Shown piece after piece: positions 12,621-35,594 of a stretch of 39,082 nt of DNA. Source of the DNA: Planctomycetota bacterium (lineage in GTDB: Bacteria > Planctomycetota > B15-G4); NCBI GenBank assembly GCA_003644265.1, contig QNBX01000022.1, forward strand, positions 1 to 39,082, read 5' to 3'. The notes below the pieces were generated by a model that had not been told where the DNA came from, made no database searches, and worked only from the letters and a program-made list of their open reading frames with translations. The position numbers and the translations under genes are program-made. Numbering within the stretch: position 1 is the stretch's first letter; each line of letters begins with the position of its first letter.

Positions 12621-13756
12621 AACGACCTGGTTTTGTTGACGTCTGGCGCGAGGCGTTGTCCTCGCTCTCACAGGGACCCGTGCCGCCGCTGCTGATCGTG
12701 GTGGGTGAGGCGCCCTTCGTGAAGGAGCGCCTGTTGGACGCCGCCATCGCCTCCCACGACGGCGATCTCGAGACCTTCGCGCCACGCCCGGGGGAGCAGG
12801 ACGCGCGGGCGCTCGATCGACTGCTTGACGACTGGGCCACCGCCACGCTGTTCGGGGGTGGCCGCCTGATCGTGGCCCGCGACGCGGACCGCTTGCTCAA
12901 GAACAAAGGCGCCGCCCGGCTCGAAGAGCGCCTGGAGCAAGGCGAGCCGCCCAACCGCCTGCTGCTGACGGTGTCCGCGCTCGATGGCCGCACACGCCTG
13001 GCCAAGCGCGTACGCAAGGCGGGCGGCCTGGTGTCGCTGCCGGTGCTGCGCGACGCGCCGCCTCCCTGGCACGCCGGCGGCCCCTTCCTGCAGACCGACC
13101 TGAACCAGTGGCTGGTTGAGGAGGCTCGCCTGCGCGGCCTGCAGCTGGCCCTGCCTGTGGCCGACGCCATGACCCAGCGCGTGGGCAACGAACCCGGCCG
13201 ACTGGCGCAGACTCTGGGTCGCCTGGGCGTCCTCATGGAGGGCCGGACCCAGGTCGAGTCGGGGGACGTCGAGCGCAACGTGGCCCACTCCAGCGCGCGG
13301 CTGCTGGCCCGTTTGGAGGACGCTCTGCGGGAGGGGCGCCCGGCCCAGGCGCTCGAGCTGGTGGATCGCATGGCGGTCGACGGCGTGTACGACCCCTTCG
13401 GCCGCCTCGTCAGCGGCGCGCTGGTGATCGAGACCGTGCTGCGCGGGCTGACCAACTCGCTGGCGCGCGAGGTCTCGGTGCACGACGCGCTCGGGCCCGC
13501 CGTGTCCGTCCTGAGCCAGCCGCCCTGGAAGCGCGACAAGCAGCACGCCGCCAGCCTCGACGCCGTGCTCGGGCAAGGCGGCCGCCGCGTGTTCCTGGAG
13601 CGCGAGCTGCGCCGCACCTCCGCCGCCGCCGCGCGAGCCAGCTTCGAGGTGGCCGTGACGGCCCTGCGCGCCCTGCGCGACGGCGTCCCCGTGAGCCTGC
13701 ACGCCGTGACCGCGCGCCTGTCCCGAGCCTTCGCCAGCACGGGGGCGGCGCGATGA
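12617..13756 (+). CDS. holA: DNA polymerase III delta subunit
   Basis: The clamp-loader delta subunit, which opens the beta clamp and loads it at primed sites. The 379-residue product shows the HolA pattern: N-terminal LIVVGEAPFVKERLLDAA, TATLFGGGRLIVARDADRLL, NRLLLTVSALDGRTRLAKRV, then the helical VGNEPGRLAQTLGRLG and a C-terminal collar domain. Similarity is at family level; sequence conservation in HolA is low. Two starts are possible, ATG at 12611 and ATG at 12617. I take 12617 because it overlaps the ubiA stop as ATGA, the spacing used by its neighbours. Its stop overlaps the mutL ATG in the same way. Confidence 0.85.
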   Translation: MKRPGFVDVWREALSSLSQGPVPPLLIVVGEAPFVKERLLDAAIASHDGDLETFAPRPGEQDARALDRLLDDWATATLFGGGRLIVARDADRLLKNKGAARLEERLEQGEPPNRLLLTVSALDGRTRLAKRVRKAGGLVSLPVLRDAPPPWHAGGPFLQTDLNQWLVEEARLRGLQLALPVADAMTQRVGNEPGRLAQTLGRLGVLMEGRTQVESGDVERNVAHSSARLLARLEDALREGRPAQALELVDRMAVDGVYDPFGRLVSGALVIETVLRGLTNSLAREVSVHDALGPAVSVLSQPPWKRDKQHAASLDAVLGQGGRRVFLERELRRTSAAAARASFEVAVTALRALRDGVPVSLHAVTARLSRAFASTGAAR

Positions 13757-15597
13757 TCCGCGCCCTGCCCCAACAGGTCGTCGATCGTATCGCGGCCGGC
13801 GAGGTCGTCGAGCGCCCCGCGTCCGTGGTCAAGGAGCTGATCGAGAACGCGCTGGACGCCGGCGCCCGGCGCATTGACGTGAGCATCGCGGGAGGGGGCC
13901 TGGAGCTGGTGCGCGTGGCCGACGACGGCGCGGGCCTGGGCGCCGAGGACCTGCCGCTGGCCTTCGCGGCCCACGCCACCAGCAAGCTGACGGACGTGGA
14001 TGACCTGGCGCACATCGCCAGCTTCGGCTTCCGGGGCGAGGCCCTGGCGTCCATCGGCGCCGTGGCTCGCTGCCGCATCACCAGCGCCAGCGGCGAGGAC
14101 GGCGCGGGCCTGAGCGTCACCTGCGAGGGCGGCGAGGTCTCTGCCCCCGCGCCCCTCGCCGCCCCGCGCGGGACGGTGGTCGAGGTGCGCGACCTGTTCT
14201 TCAACACGCCCGCGCGGCGCGCGTTCCTGGGCGCGGTGCGCACGGAGACGGCCCGCTGCCGCGAGCTGGTCAACGCCCTCAGCCTGGTGCACGACGAGGT
14301 GCGCTTCGCATTGGAAGTGGACGGCAAGTCACGCCTCAAGGGTCGTCCGGCGGGCGACCTGAACGCGCGTCTGGCCGCGGTCTATGACGCCGAATTCGCC
14401 GCGTCCATGGTGCCCGTGTCGGGGCACGAGCAGGGGCTGCGCTTGAGCGGCAGGCTGAGCCTGCCCGCAGCTGCCCGGCCGCGTCCGCGCGCCCAGCTGC
14501 TGTTCGTGAACGGCCGGCTGATCCGGGACCGGCGCGTGGCCACGGCCGTGCGCGTCGCCTGCAAGGACTTCTTGCCAGGCAGCCTGCAGCCCAGCTGGGT
14601 GCTCGCGCTCAGCGTCGATCCGGCCTGCGTGGACGTGAACGTACACCCGACCAAGGCCGAGGTGCGCTTCCGCGACAAGGAGCTGCTCTTCGGCCTGGTG
14701 CGCCGCGCGTGTCGGGCGGCGTTGCTGTCCGCCGACCTGACGCCCCACGCGCAGCTCGCATCGCTGGCGCCGCCACACACCTCGGGAGGCCCGCCACGCC
14801 CCTCGCTGCCCGTGATCGGGCAGCCGGACTCAGCGCCAGGCACGCCATCTCAGGACCCGATCTCAGGCGGCCGCTCCCCGCTGCTGCACGGCGCGCGGGG
14901 TCTGCCCTCCAGTGACAGCTCGTCGATCCCGGACGCGGACGCGGGCGTGAGCGAGCCCACGCCGAGCGTCTCACCCGGCCTGCCCAGCCACACCACCGCG
15001 ACGCAGCCGACGCTGCTCTCGGCCCGGGCGGCCGTGCGCTTCTTGCAGGTGCTCGACACCTACCTGGTGCACGACGGCCCCGAGGGGCTGGTGATCGTGG
15101 ACCAGCATGCGTTGCACGAGCGCATCCTCTACGCGCGCCTGGCCCAGGCCCGGGACGCGGGGCAGATCGAGCGCCAGCGCCTGCTGCTGCCTCAGACCGT
15201 GCGCTTGGATCCCCTCGACCTGGCCGCGGCCACCGAACGCGCCGATGAGTTCAAGCGCATCGGCTTGGAACTGGCGCCCTTCGGTCACGATCTGGTGGCC
15301 ATCTCAGCCGTGCCGGCGGTGCTGCGAAACGAAGACCCGGGCGCCCTGTTGATGGACCTTCTGCATCCGCGCGACCTGCACGGCGGCATCCCCGATGACC
15401 TGGACCGGCGCCTGTTCACCATCGCCTGTCATGCGGCCGTGCGCTCGGGGGACCCGCTCAGCGAGGAGGACGCCGCCGAGCTGCTGCGTCAGGGCAGCGA
15501 ACTCGAACACGACGCCACCTGTCCGCATGGTCGCCCCACGCGCCTGGTGGTGGGCAAGGCCGAGTTTGAGCGGCTCTTCAAGCGCAGCGGGTTCTGA
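13753..15597 (+). CDS. mutL: DNA mismatch repair protein MutL
   Basis: The mismatch-repair mediator between MutS and strand incision. Its 614 residues hold an N-terminal GHKL ATPase with RIAAGEVVERPASVVKELIE, ENALDAGA, DDGAGL and GFRGEALASI; a Pro/Ser-rich linker at about 335-420; and a C-terminal dimerisation domain. The C-terminal domain has DQHALHERILYA, ACHAAVRSGD, CPHGRPT and a terminal FERLFKR, close to the nuclease-type MutL motifs, but the last Glu of DQHA(X)2E(X)4E is Ala here. Whether the nuclease is active is therefore unclear. ATG at 13753 overlaps holA by four bases. It ends the run and converges with an unknown lipoprotein 12 bases away. Confidence 0.96.
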   Translation: MIRALPQQVVDRIAAGEVVERPASVVKELIENALDAGARRIDVSIAGGGLELVRVADDGAGLGAEDLPLAFAAHATSKLTDVDDLAHIASFGFRGEALASIGAVARCRITSASGEDGAGLSVTCEGGEVSAPAPLAAPRGTVVEVRDLFFNTPARRAFLGAVRTETARCRELVNALSLVHDEVRFALEVDGKSRLKGRPAGDLNARLAAVYDAEFAASMVPVSGHEQGLRLSGRLSLPAAARPRPRAQLLFVNGRLIRDRRVATAVRVACKDFLPGSLQPSWVLALSVDPACVDVNVHPTKAEVRFRDKELLFGLVRRACRAALLSADLTPHAQLASLAPPHTSGGPPRPSLPVIGQPDSAPGTPSQDPISGGRSPLLHGARGLPSSDSSSIPDADAGVSEPTPSVSPGLPSHTTATQPTLLSARAAVRFLQVLDTYLVHDGPEGLVIVDQHALHERILYARLAQARDAGQIERQRLLLPQTVRLDPLDLAAATERADEFKRIGLELAPFGHDLVAISAVPAVLRNEDPGALLMDLLHPRDLHGGIPDDLDRRLFTIACHAAVRSGDPLSEEDAAELLRQGSELEHDATCPHGRPTRLVVGKAEFERLFKRSGF

Positions 15598-19043: not shown

Positions 19044-19399
19044 GGGGGCGACTTGGCTTCGACCGGGTTGCTGACTCCTCCGAGTGGCGTGCCGAGGTTC
19101 CCAGGAGGCCTCGTAAATCACCTGGGAAACACTTAGCTGGCAACAACAGCTACGCTCTGGCTGCCTGAAAAGGCTGCCCGTTCCCCCGGTTTGAGCCTGC
19201 CGGATCGGGGGAACGTCACTTGCAGGCTGGCTCTGGCCCCTCGATCCGCGGGGTTGGGGCGAGATCATGCGGATTGGCTGGACGCAGGGGTCTGTCGGAC
19301 GGACCCGCGCGAGGCGAGAGCAGAACGGTCCGACTACGCACGTAGATGCTTTGGGGAGGGCGCCTTGGGACGCGGGTTCGATTCCCGCCGCCTCCACCA
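19044..19399 (+). ncRNA. ssrA: tmRNA (transfer-messenger RNA)
   Basis: A one-piece tmRNA of 356 bases. The tRNA-like ends are clear: 5' GGGGGCG pairs with 3' CGCCTCC followed by ACCA (19396-19399), and the T arm contains GGGTTCGATTCCC. The tag reading frame starts at the resume codon GCT (19136) and reads AGNNSYALAA, ending in TGA (19166-19168); the terminal YALAA is the degradation signal for ClpXP-type proteases. The middle should fold into pseudoknots, not resolved here. It follows smpB, a common arrangement. The resume codon is placed by comparison with other tags; a start one codon later (Gly) cannot be excluded. Confidence 0.97.
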
Positions 19400-22206: not shown

Positions 22207-22280
22207 CGTCGTGCGAGCCCTCGCGTCGGGTGGTGTGTGCGGGGTTTTTCAGGAATTCAGCTCGACCCTGCGCGGCTGCA

Positions 22281-22300
22281 TGTTAAGTACGTGTTAGGTA
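22281..22300 (+). promoter_or_regulatory. Direct-repeat candidate operator upstream of recA
   Basis: TGTTAAGTA (22281-22289) and TGTTAGGTA (22292-22300) are 9-base direct repeats with one mismatch and an 11-base period, so both face the same side of the helix. They stand out as AT-rich islands in GC-rich DNA about 120 bases before the recA ATG. They match neither the Gram-positive nor the enterobacterial LexA box as I know them. Confidence 0.4.
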
Positions 22301-22351
22301 TGGCGCTTGAGGAGCGACGGAACCGGCCCCGGCATGCATGTCCGGCGCCTT

Positions 22352-22391
22352 CCGGGTCTTCGGCGTTTGGCGCGACCCGGGCTCAAACCCG
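22352..22391 (+). promoter_or_regulatory. Overlapping hairpins in the recA leader
   Basis: CCGGGTC (22352-22358) pairs with GACCCGG (22374-22380) over a 15-base loop. CGGG (22378-22381) can instead pair with CCCG (22388-22391) over six bases. The two share bases 22378-22380 and are mutually exclusive. The recA Shine-Dalgarno AGGAGG lies just downstream. Confidence 0.25.
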
Positions 22392-22416
22392 TGGCCGAGA
22401 GATCCAGGAGGAACCC

Positions 22417-23523
22417 ATGGCATTAGGTACCAGCAAGGTCGGAAAGCAGAGCGTCGGCAAGGCCAACGGACGCAGTGAGTCCGCGAGCAAGAGCAAAGGT
22501 CGGGCCAGCGGCAAGATCGCTGTCAAAGGCAGCGACGGCCAGGTCGAGGCGCTCGACCTGACCCTGGCGCAGATCGAGAAGCAGTTTGGCTCGGGCTCCA
22601 TCATGCGCCTCGGCGATCAGCCGGCCCAAGTGGTCGAGGGCATCAGCACCGGTTCCTTCTCGCTCGATCTGGCCCTGGGCGGCAAGGGCCTGCCCAAGGG
22701 ACGCATCGTCGAGGTGTTCGGCCCCGAGTCGTCGGGCAAGACCACGCTCACGCTGCACGTCATCGCCAGCGCCCAGAAGGAGGGTGGGGCCTGCGCGTTC
22801 ATCGACGCGGAACACGCCCTCGACCCGACCTACGCGGCCAAGCTGGGTGTCGACACCGAGAACCTGATCGTGTCGCAGCCCGACAGCGGTGAGCAGGCCC
22901 TCGAGATCTGCGAAATGCTGGTGCGCAGCAACGCCTTCTCCGTGGTGGTGGTCGACTCGGTCGCCGCGCTGGTGCCACGGGCCGAACTCGAGGGCGAGAT
23001 GGGCGACACGCATGTCGGCCTGCAGGCGCGCCTCATGTCCCAGGCCATGCGCAAGCTCACCGGGGCCATCTCGCGCTCGCAGACCTGCGTCATCTTCATC
23101 AACCAGATCCGCGAGAAGATCGGTGTGTTCTTCGGGAGCCCCGAGACCACCACGGGCGGACGGGCGCTCAAGTTCTACTCCTCGGTGCGCCTGGACATCC
23201 GGCGCATCGGCGCCATCAAGCTGGCCGACAAGATGGTCGGCAACCGCACCCGGGTCACGGTGGTCAAGAACAAGATGGCACCCCCGTTCCGCAAGTCGGA
23301 GTTCGACATCCTGTTCAACCAGGGCATCTCCTACGTGGGCGACATCCTCGACATGGCCGTCGAGCGGGAGATCATCAAGAAGTCCGGCGTCTGGATGTCC
23401 TACGGCGCCACCCGCATCGGGCAAGGACGGGAAAAAGCCCGCGACTTCCTGAAGGAGAACGGCGATATTCTCGGGGAAATCGAGGCCAAGTTGCGCGAGA
23501 GCATCGCGGCCGCCAACAGCTGA
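22417..23523 (+). CDS. recA: Recombinase RecA
   Basis: Forms filaments on single-stranded DNA, drives strand exchange and triggers LexA-type self-cleavage. The product has 368 residues. ATG at 22417 follows a strong AGGAGG with good spacing. Walker A GPESSGKT lies at 102-109, with [64 protein letters not shown] and the C-terminal [19 protein letters not shown] segment all intact. The first 43 residues are a Lys/Ser/Gly-rich extension absent from typical RecA, and the acidic C-terminal tail seen in many RecAs is short or missing. A 210-base upstream region with possible regulatory repeats precedes it, and alaS follows after 58 bases. Confidence 0.98.
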
Positions 23524-23581: not shown

Positions 23582-26461
23582 ATGACACCCGACGCGTTGC
23601 GTGAGGCCTTCCTGAGCTTCTTCGAGGAGCGGGGACACACCCGCCACCCCTCCGACTCGCTGGTTCCCGAGAACGACCCGACGCTGCTGTTCACGGGCGC
23701 GGGCATGAACCAGTTCAAGGCCGAGTTCCTCGGCAAGGGCAGCCTGCCCTTCACGCGGGCGACCACGGCGCAGAAGTGCCTGCGCATGCCCGACCTCGAG
23801 AATGTGGGCCGCACGGCGAGCCACCACACGTTCTTCGAGATGCTGGGCAACTTCAGCTTCGGGGACTACTTCAAGCACGAGGCCATCGGTTGGGCCTGGG
23901 AGCTGTTGGGCCAGTTGGGCGTGCCTGCGGATCGGCTCTCCGTCACGGTCTATGAAGATGACGACGAGGCCGCCGCCATCTGGATCGACGAAGCGGGTGT
24001 GGCGCCCGGACGTGTCTTCCGCGATGGCGAGGACGAGAACTTCTGGCCAGCCTCCGCGCCGACCAAGGGGCCCAATGGCATCTGCGGGCCCTGCTCCGAG
24101 ATCTACTTCGACTGTGACCCCGATCGCGGCGACTACCCCGTGGGGGGGCCTGCGGTGGACGGCGGCCGATTCGTCGAGATCTGGAACCTCGTCTTCACCC
24201 AGTACGAACGTGGCGACGGGGGCCTGCTCACGCCGCTGCCTGCCGCCAACATCGACACGGGCATGGGTTTTGAGCGCATGCTGCGCGTGGTCGAGTCGCT
24301 GGAGCGCGGTGAGCTGCTCCCCAGCAACTTCGAGACCAGCCTGTTCGCGCCCATCATGGCGGCCATCCACGAACACGTGGGCCGCGACACGATCCATGGC
24401 ACGCCCGAGGGCGCGCGCACCCGGCGCATCGCCGATCATGTGCGCGCCGCCTGCTTCTGTATCGCCGATGGTGTGCGGCCCAGCAATGAGAAGCAGGGCT
24501 ACGTCGTGCGCAAGGTGTTGCGACGGGCCATGCTCGATCGGCACCTGCTCGGCGGCGACCTGCGCCAGCCCTGGTTGGCCAGCTTGGCCGGCACGGTCAT
24601 CGATCAGATGGGGGCGGCCTGGCCCACGCTGCGTGACGCCGCGTCGGTCATCGCCTCCTCCATCGAGACCGAGGAAGACAAGTTTGCTGCGGCGTTCCTG
24701 TCGGGCTCGCAGCGGCTGGCGGTGTTTGCCTCCAAGCAGCGCGACGCGGGCAGCTCGGAGCTGCCGGGCGATCAGGCTTTTCTGCTGTACGACACCTTCG
24801 GCTTGCCGCTCGACATGCAGCGCCCGCTGCTCGAGCAAGAGGGGCTCGGTGTCGACGAGCAGGGCTTCTTGGACGCCATGGCCGAGCAGCGCCGGCGCTC
24901 CCGCGAGGGCAGCCGCATCCCGGACTCCATCTTTGACGAGGGCCCCCTGGCCGCGGTGTCGGGCAGCTTGCCGCCCACGCGGTTCGTGCGTGGCGAGCTG
25001 ACGGCGGCCGGGTTGACCCTCGACGACGCGCAGATCCTCGCGCTGGTGGATGACAGCGACGACGGCGATGGCAGCGATGGGCAACAACCAGACGACTCGC
25101 CGGCGGAGGACCAGCAGGTCGGCGCCGCGCAGGCCGAGCAGCGCAAGGTCGTGGTGGTGCTGGACCGTACCCCGTTCTACAGCGAGGGCGGCGGCCAGGT
25201 CGGCGATCGAGGCACGCTGGTGGGCGACGATTTCACCATCGACGTCGATGACGTGGTCGCCATGCGCGGTATCGCCCTGCATCGTGGCGTGGTGCGCGAC
25301 GGTGAGCCCGGCACCGGGCGCGTACGCGCTCGCGTTGACCTGCCCGCGCGCGCGGGCACCTCGCGCAACCACACCGCCACGCACCTGCTGCACGCGGCCC
25401 TGCGCGAGGTCCTGGGAGACGACGTGACGCAGGCGGGTTCGCTGGTGGCTCCTGAGCGCTTGCGTTTCGACTTCCGCTTTCCGAGAGGGGCCACGGAACA
25501 GGAGCTGGGCCGGGTCGAAGACCTGGTCAACGCCTGGATCCTCGCCAACACCGCGGTCGGCGCCCGCGAGATGCCCATGACGCAGGCCCGGGCCGAGGGG
25601 GCCATGGCCCTGTTCGGTGAGAAGTACGGCGACGTAGTGCGTGTCGTCACCGTCGCGGGTGCGCCGTCTGAATCCAGCTCGGGCTCCGAGGGGTCCGCCG
25701 ACTCCGACCCCGACTCCGACTCCAACTCCAACTCCAACTCCGACTCCGACTCCAACTCCGACTCCAACTCCAACTCCGACTCCAACTCCGACTCCAACTC
25801 CAACCCTGACAGCGACAGCGACAGCGTCGAGTTGTGCGGCGGGACGCACGTGTCGCGCTCCGGCGACATCGGTCTGTTTCGGCTGCTGAGCGAGGGCTCG
25901 GTGGCGGCGGGGGTGCGGCGCATCGAGGCCCGCACCGGCACCGGCGTGCTGGAGCTTGTGCGTGAGCAGGGCGCGGCCCTGGGTCACACGGCGGCCCTGC
26001 TCAAGACCAGCCCCGACCGCATCGACGAGCGCGTGGCGGCGCTGCAAGCCGACCTCAAGCAATCCCGCAAAGAACTGGATGAACTGCGCGAGGGGCAGGC
26101 CTTGCAGGCACTGACCGCCGGCGCGCGCTCCTGGAACGGCCTGTCGTTGGTGCTGGCGGTGGTGCCTGGGATTCCGCCCAAGGACCTGCGCGAGCTGGTG
26201 GGCAAGCAGATCGCGGCAGGGCAGGACGTGGTGCTGTTGGCCGCGCCCGATGGGGATGTCACCCACTACCTGGCCGCCTCCGGCGCTCAGGCCCGAGAGG
26301 CTGGCATCGCCGCCGATCAGCTGGTTCGCGCCCTGGCGCAGGCCCTGGGAGGCCGCGGTGGCGGCAAGCCGGCCTTCGCCCAGGGACGGGGCGGCGCCAG
26401 CGAGGATCTCCCGGCCGTGCTCGAGCAGGCCCTGCAAGCCGTCTCCAAGACCCAGGTGTGA
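23582..26461 (+). CDS. alaS: Alanyl-tRNA synthetase with Asp/Asn-Ser repeat insertion
   Basis: Charges tRNA-Ala and, through its editing domain, removes mischarged Ser and Gly. The 959-residue product is longer than the usual ~875. Landmarks are the class II catalytic core with NFSFGDYFK and GMGFERM, the editing domain with HTATH (His597, His601) and CGGTH (Cys752, His756), and the C-terminal DHHA1-type region. His601 to Cys752 spans 151 residues against 98 in E. coli AlaRS; the excess is a low-complexity tract at about 697-748, mostly Asp-Ser and Asn-Ser pairs, just before SVELCGGTH. A second Asp/Ser/Gln-rich insert lies at about 490-522. ATG at 23582 matches the family start; GTG 23561 is an in-frame alternative inside the hairpin loop. 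Confidence 0.97.
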   Translation: MTPDALREAFLSFFEERGHTRHPSDSLVPENDPTLLFTGAGMNQFKAEFLGKGSLPFTRATTAQKCLRMPDLENVGRTASHHTFFEMLGNFSFGDYFKHEAIGWAWELLGQLGVPADRLSVTVYEDDDEAAAIWIDEAGVAPGRVFRDGEDENFWPASAPTKGPNGICGPCSEIYFDCDPDRGDYPVGGPAVDGGRFVEIWNLVFTQYERGDGGLLTPLPAANIDTGMGFERMLRVVESLERGELLPSNFETSLFAPIMAAIHEHVGRDTIHGTPEGARTRRIADHVRAACFCIADGVRPSNEKQGYVVRKVLRRAMLDRHLLGGDLRQPWLASLAGTVIDQMGAAWPTLRDAASVIASSIETEEDKFAAAFLSGSQRLAVFASKQRDAGSSELPGDQAFLLYDTFGLPLDMQRPLLEQEGLGVDEQGFLDAMAEQRRRSREGSRIPDSIFDEGPLAAVSGSLPPTRFVRGELTAAGLTLDDAQILALVDDSDDGDGSDGQQPDDSPAEDQQVGAAQAEQRKVVVVLDRTPFYSEGGGQVGDRGTLVGDDFTIDVDDVVAMRGIALHRGVVRDGEPGTGRVRARVDLPARAGTSRNHTATHLLHAALREVLGDDVTQAGSLVAPERLRFDFRFPRGATEQELGRVEDLVNAWILANTAVGAREMPMTQARAEGAMALFGEKYGDVVRVVTVAGAPSESSSGSEGSADSDPDSDSNSNSNSDSDSNSDSNSNSDSNSDSNSNPDSDSDSVELCGGTHVSRSGDIGLFRLLSEGSVAAGVRRIEARTGTGVLELVREQGAALGHTAALLKTSPDRIDERVAALQADLKQSRKELDELREGQALQALTAGARSWNGLSLVLAVVPGIPPKDLRELVGKQIAAGQDVVLLAAPDGDVTHYLAASGAQAREAGIAADQLVRALAQALGGRGGGKPAFAQGRGGASEDLPAVLEQALQAVSKTQV
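25700..25825 (+). repeat. Hexanucleotide tandem array within alaS
   Basis: Eighteen consecutive 6-base units from 25700 to 25807, nearly all GACTCC or AACTCC with two variants (GACCCC, AACCCT), then three GACAGC (25808-25825). The reading frame is kept, so units encode Asp-Ser or Asn-Ser. The near-uniform codon choice within units points to recent slippage or unequal crossing-over rather than slow drift. Confidence 0.95.
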
Positions 26462-26590: not shown

Positions 26591-26770
26591 ATGGCCGTCC
26601 CGAAGCGTAAGACCTCCAAACAGCGCAAGCGCAAGCGCCGCTCCCACCTCGCCCTCGCCACGCCGCCTACCTCGGTCTGCGATCGGTGTGGGGCCGAGAA
26701 GATGCCCCATACGGTGTGTGAGAGCTGCGGGCACTACCGCGGCCGCGACGTGCTCGCCCTCGACGCCTGA
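26591..26770 (+). CDS. rpmF: Large ribosomal subunit protein bL32
   Basis: A 59-residue ribosomal protein. It begins MAVPKRKTSKQRKRKRRSH, the standard bL32 N-terminus, and has a four-Cys zinc ribbon at Cys30, Cys33, Cys43 and Cys46 (CDRC, CESC). It is the first gene of the fatty-acid cluster, followed after 12 bases by plsX, the same order as in many bacteria. The YceD/DUF177 gene that often precedes rpmF is absent; alaS is upstream. Confidence 0.96.
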   Translation: MAVPKRKTSKQRKRKRRSHLALATPPTSVCDRCGAEKMPHTVCESCGHYRGRDVLALDA

Positions 26771-35398: not shown

Positions 35399-35487
35399 GC
35401 CAGAGTGGCGGAACCGGTAGACGCGGCGGATTCAAAATCCGCAGCCCTTCATCGGGCGTGGGGGTTCGAGTCCCCCCTCTGGCACCA
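35399..35487 (+). tRNA. tRNA-Leu (anticodon CAA)
   Basis: A class II tRNA. The acceptor GCCAGAG pairs with CTCTGGC, discriminator A and encoded CCA (35485-35487) follow, the anticodon stem GCGGA/TCCGC holds a loop with CAA, and a long variable arm and GGTTCGAGTCC T-loop are present. It reads UUG codons. It stands 133 bases after dapB. Confidence 0.97.
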
Positions 35488-35523
35488 TCTGTTCCGGCGA
35501 GCAGACGGACGCGGCGGCGAGCC

Positions 35524-35594
35524 GGCTCGGCCCCGGCTCGGCCCCGGCTCGGCCCCGGCTCGGCCCCGGCTCGGCCCCGGCTCGGCTCGGCCCC
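35524..35594. repeat. 11-bp GC-rich tandem repeat
   Basis: Five back-to-back copies of GGCTCGGCCCC (35524-35578), a 5-base partial copy, then a sixth full copy (35584-35594). It lies between tRNA-Leu(CAA) and the 3' end of a convergent small membrane gene. The unit contains GGC...GCC and could form stacked hairpins. No coding frame through it looks genuine. Confidence 0.9.

Follow-up and report, generated by a model that had tools for sequence, protein, structure and literature searches.

Tandem repeats that lengthen a protein in frame have been described for Borgs, in which recent in-frame DNA repeats (aaTRs) encode disordered regions that are almost never present in homologues, and the authors hold these repeats to be under strong selection (available portion of PMC9879509). 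A conserved protein with a functional disordered region has also been reported in Bacteroides, namely Rho; the disordered insertions of some Rho proteins consist of short tandem repeats, for instance YQSRGD repeated 14 times (PMC10284900). We analyzed a 39,082-nucleotide stretch of Planctomycetota DNA (hereafter the window) in which a hexamer array lies within the gene for alanyl-tRNA synthetase (AlaRS). Among the matches listed in the open-access literature, no title described a bacterial AlaRS with a tandem-repeat insertion, and the available portions of two papers (PMC4700210 and PMC6366043) held nothing decisive.

The alaS gene and its hexamer array

The alaS gene occupies positions 23582-26461 on the forward strand and encodes a 959-residue protein (P0001) with matches to the Pfam families tRNA-synt_2c, tRNA_SAD and DHHA1. 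The alanine--tRNA ligase model TIGR00344 scored 775.5 bits over the whole protein against a curated cut-off of 457.05, and P0001 carried the HxxxH and CxxxH ligand pattern of the AlaRS editing domain. Aminoacylation and Ser/Gly editing are its predicted activities. A Foldseek search returned AlaRS and AlaX structures as the top matches. Upstream lies recA (ORF 22237-23523, identified by Pfam matches). On the downstream side, a short ORF at 26592 that we take to resemble ribosomal protein L32 is followed by fatty-acid synthesis genes. The relatives of P0001 that had a source name were mostly MAGs labelled Planctomycetota, and one at 64% identity (P0006) was labelled Pseudohongiellaceae. The closest among the 120 matches listed (P0002) shared 73% local identity. 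At residues 64-76 (23771-23809) the sequence of P0001 is QKCLRMPDLENVG, compared with QRCVRAGGKHNDLENVG in the best-matching solved enzyme; the four-residue gap at this place is common to the consensus of a 70-sequence alignment.

Codon-by-codon reading of positions 25700-25825 gave 21 in-frame six-base units directly before the zinc motif CGGTH, comprising 8 GACTCC, 8 AACTCC, 1 GACCCC, 1 AACCCT and 3 GACAGC. The preliminary description had counted 18 units of the GACTCC/AACTCC type plus three GACAGC, and the count held, with 16 of the 18 being exact and the other two placing Pro for Ser (GACCCC at 25706 and AACCCT at 25802). These 18 units, detected both by TRF and by codon reading, fill 25700-25807 on the forward strand and include a perfect (G/A)ACTCC run of 15 units (25712-25801). 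The three GACAGC units follow on the same strand at 25808-25825, and the last of them abuts GTCGAG (Val-Glu). Outside the array, codon reading showed a forward-strand lead-in at 25670-25699 that encodes ESSSGSEGSA, rich in Ser, Glu and Gly, with mixed Ser codons. Within the array the first codon positions varied (12 Asp and 9 Asn) whereas the third positions barely did, and the region 25701-25825 was 60% G+C.

TRF run on the window reported the array at 25701-25804 with a period of 6, 17.3 copies, 88% matches and a score of 145. In 100 dinucleotide-preserving shuffles of the window the longest (G/A)ACTCC run was always 1, as against the 15 observed, and the best period-6 agreement over 102 bases was 90 in the window while the shuffles had a mean of 47 and a maximum of 53. 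The array is thus a short head-to-tail unit repeated beyond chance, and since the six-base unit equals two codons the reading frame is kept, which bears out the earlier characterization of this DNA as microsatellite-like.

Loop length and structure at the zinc site

We compared the loop in P0001 with that of its homologues by several measures. The expanded hairpin loop (residues 692-748; 25655-25825 on the forward strand) has 57 residues, compared with 8-14 in 31 close relatives and 3-25 (median 9) in all 69 aligned homologues, counted between residues 691 and 749. The stretch from FGEKY to the zinc Cys spanned 74 residues in P0001; it could be measured in 210 of the 220 proteins, and the other 209 had 20-42. 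Of the ten proteins lacking this value, five were short by a looser pattern and five had no motif; among the latter, one lacks it after an apparent frame change and three are partial. The longest run of Asp, Ser and Asn was 31 residues in P0001, and none exceeded 6 residues in the other 219 of the 220 proteins, the maximum of 6 occurring in P0125. These results agreed with the view that the tract has genuinely been inserted, in frame, into the editing domain next to the zinc motif. The alignment of related AlaRS proteins that had been proposed as a check was run, and the tract was absent from every other sequence.

The size of the excess had to be corrected. The distance of 151 residues from the second His (H601) to C752 was as described; the excess of 53 over a baseline of 98 did not hold against close kin, since all 37 clade members (P0002-P0038) had 102-108 residues, leaving an excess of 43-49. 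The baseline had been taken from E. coli AlaRS, whose zinc-binding Cys is C666 (available portion of PMC8857464); 98 was a common value among the homologues measured.

Genes taken directly from genomes gave the same picture. We measured 31 of 37 AlaRS loci (28 distinct genes, three occurring twice) and found 21-29 residues from FGEKY to Cys, a range that leaves out L055, which reads 40 because the pattern started too far upstream. Five further genome-derived AlaRS genes also had a short loop, and in G190, whose AlaRS gave no pattern match, other matches put query residues 704 and 747 30 bases apart. A search seeded with words from residues 660-800 found no similar tract in an AlaRS among the 120 matches listed; each protein search scores about 8000 candidates sharing the most words and lists 120 of thousands of matches, so a rare tract-bearing AlaRS could escape it. 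Among the homologues examined, the tract is private to P0001 as judged by sequence. The next-longest loops at this site were those of P0122 and P0125 (FGEKY-to-Cys distances of 42 and 39 residues), with sequences unrelated to the tract. These two proteins and P0135 have longer AlaRS loops with extra Cys and His residues, for which a further metal site is possible.

Both halves of the zinc site were intact. All four ligands were invariant in the 70-sequence alignment, with H597 and H601 in HTATH (25370-25384, forward strand) and C752 and H756 in CGGTH (25835-25849, forward strand), and only three residues (V-E-L) separate the array from C752. Modelling with the tract, also proposed beforehand, was carried out with AlphaFold2 on the 70 sequences and gave a mean pLDDT of 87.5 and a pTM of 0.60. 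Residues 699-741 had pLDDT below 50, while the flanking strands (685-691 and 748-751) were retained. We read the tract in this model as a disordered extension of a beta-hairpin tip on a confidently predicted core. The earlier phrase "conserved hairpin" therefore applies to the zinc ligands and not to the length of the tip, which varies from 3 to 25 residues in the 69 homologues; by alignment, the tract site is a length-variable hairpin tip at which relatives already differ. A second acidic, Asp/Ser-rich insert was found at residues 487-522 (25040-25147, forward strand), with pLDDT below 50 at 496-517. Since this insert sits in a variable linker that spans 8-51 residues in the 69 homologues and is often acidic, the AlaRS of this clade already tolerates polar insertions.

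Origin of the array and alternative explanations

The Ser codons of the tract bear on its origin. Every one of the 16 in the core array (25700-25807) was TCC, compared with 95 of 368 (26%) in 13 reading frames of the window and 14 of 45 elsewhere in alaS. The 13-frame set includes alaS outside the tract; 11 frames had Pfam matches, one had none on scanning and one was outside the Pfam scans. Under independent codon choice, 16 of 16 has a p-value of 4e-10 to 8e-9, and this homogeneity argues that the tract grew as DNA. At the equivalent site some relatives have GAC AGC (L002, L030 and L031) or GAC AGT (L001 and L007) once before GTC/CTC, and others have GAC TCG, GAT TCG or different codons. The three GACAGC units are the Asp-Ser codon pair of these relatives, in the same place, three times over. 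A GACTCC seed was found in none of the relatives compared at the site, which use AGC, AGT or TCG there. We rejected block duplication of the Asp/Asn pattern, since its order was no better than chance (the longest internal repeat of 5 units was matched by 54% of permutations).

We consider it probable that a slippage-type microsatellite expansion in one Planctomycetota-like lineage produced a tolerated disordered loop. In this account the six-base repeat would have been enlarged within alaS by DNA-level duplication, through slipped-strand mispairing or unequal exchange. The most likely seed is the relatives' Asp-Ser codon pair just before Val-Glu-Leu-Cys-Gly-Gly-Thr-His; this ancestral pair would have been tripled as GACAGC, with a TCC version of the dipeptide expanding alongside. 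Growth by a two-codon unit would keep the frame, and the position at a length-variable hairpin tip would allow a polar disordered loop to be tolerated while the zinc ligands stay put. Slippage as the mechanism, the seed from which the (G/A)ACTCC block grew, the solvent exposure of the loop and its near-neutrality are all inferred. Selection for a mixture of Asp and Asn could also explain the varying first and near-constant third codon positions. Of the three roles suggested at the outset (tuning of editing, metal binding and a tolerated selfish expansion), the last gave the best fit.

The alternatives differ in what they make of the loop, of the DNA and of the assembly. An acquired disordered region that is acidic, phosphorylatable or condensate-forming might alter the localisation, solubility or editing of AlaRS, with unit number tuning the effect. 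The Rho and Borg precedents, in which conserved proteins acquired disordered regions with a function, speak for such a role, as does the nearness of the array to the zinc Cys; we nevertheless regard it as unlikely, because the tract occurs in no homologue examined, its composition does not recur at the site, and the codon homogeneity points to a young DNA expansion. An array invented or mis-sized during assembly would fit the difficulty that a 126-base repeat poses for short reads, and no homologue exceeded 73% local identity among the 120 matches listed. Against this, the frame is unbroken, both flanks are intact and the units are non-identical, and since exact repeats within the array reach at most 32 bases, an assembly graph built with words longer than 32 bases would follow a single path through it, so that we judge an artefact very unlikely. 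The array is real in the given sequence and looks unusual for an AlaRS, and it is most likely a tolerated expansion at a site where relatives already differ rather than a new mechanism.

It has, finally, hardly any probability in our estimate that the DNA array itself acts, as a template-strand structure or recombination site, with the protein loop as a by-product. Folded as DNA, the reverse strand did better than its shuffles (-6.5 kcal/mol, z -3.3, 1 of 200 equally good), although that energy is small in absolute terms, the coding strand had no fold (-0.4 kcal/mol), and four-unit (G/A)ACTCC arrays were found in none of the six genomes of the first relatives. We rejected a template-strand hairpin, whose -41 kcal/mol with RNA parameters was aided by G-U pairs and fell to only -6.5 with DNA parameters; no quadruplex was predicted in the template strand in the RNA-parameter fold.

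We also looked for similar arrays elsewhere. At least four exact (G/A)ACTCC units occurred in 7 of 294 sampled Planctomycetota genomes, as against 3 of 294 for a reversed control pattern, a weak enrichment. In the seven genomes these arrays lay at places unrelated to one another, at in-frame C-terminal ends of ORFs, in low-complexity ORFs and at seemingly non-coding spots, and for some the phase frame had only 31 codons or the array preceded a possible start codon. The AlaRS loop was short in all six of the seven that were measured. In one genome (G122; L026 and L065-L089) (GACTCC)n or (AACTCC)n arrays were seen on 8 contigs, and several of them adjoin GACACC, GACGCC or GAGACC hexamers, so that one frame encodes Asp-Ser/Thr/Ala dipeptide repeats.

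A genome-wide proneness to arrays was rejected as an explanation. TRF rows scoring at least 100 numbered two in the 39-kb window, none in 400 kb of G006, and 48 in 1,009,265 bases (2,695 of them N) of G006, G123, G051, G001 and G002, where overlapping rows were counted apart and many were of long period; by a crude test the window was not enriched relative to these five relatives (p 0.56). No period-6 array scoring at least 60 was found by TRF in the five-relative sample, and one scored 51. Loss of mismatch repair was likewise rejected as the cause, since the window encodes MutL (13753-15597) with matches to the ATPase, middle and C-terminal domains; six-base loops are thought to escape MutS. 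Elsewhere in the window, a perfect 11-base array, CCGGCTCGGCC, runs for 5.9 copies at 35522-35586, starting 34 bases after a tRNA-Leu(CAA) gene (35399-35487), and is probably intergenic because an 11-base unit would shift any frame. A tmRNA gene with the tag peptide GNNSYALAA lies at 19044-19399.

If slippage were to generate loop-length variants of AlaRS within a population, unit number could act as a knob on editing or solubility and on mistranslation of Ala codons. We hold this to be highly improbable; were it true, the array would be comparable to contingency loci, with translation fidelity as the trait affected, and would form a mutable switch. The tract suggests how much disorder an essential editing domain can bear three residues from a zinc ligand. 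It also offers a convenient case for asking whether natural variation occurs in frame-keeping microsatellites of housekeeping enzymes.

Comparison with known repeat systems

Staphylococcal MSCRAMM proteins are surface adhesins, and some of them (ClfA, SdrC) share the Ser-Asp dipeptide composition of the tract. The likeness to surface proteins that had been drawn holds for composition and fails at the level of family, as MSCRAMM models scored 23.9-25.7 bits against P0001 with cut-offs of 999-2500. In a related genome (G002), TRF found in-frame nine-base acidic arrays encoding DDE and DIE. Like the alaS tract, these arrays are acidic, preserve the frame and occur in open frames within the same broader clade; they differ in unit and in the genes affected, and lie outside AlaRS.

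The alaS repeat resembles the Borg aaTRs in being predicted to be disordered and in being absent from the homologues examined. On the other hand, Borg repeats are A-enriched, are found in many genes of each element and are over-represented in extracellular or membrane proteins (available portion of PMC9879509), whereas the alaS hexamer is ~60% G+C and sits in a cytosolic bacterial housekeeping enzyme. Nor is it the A-enriched, perfect repeat of Borgs, since the order of Asp and Asn is irregular and Pro occurs in two units. In Rho, the composition is common to related taxa and phase separation has been reported in one species (PMC10284900), while the alaS tract is represented by one sequence. 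As with Rho, it is a low-complexity insertion at a variable site of a widely conserved bacterial protein.
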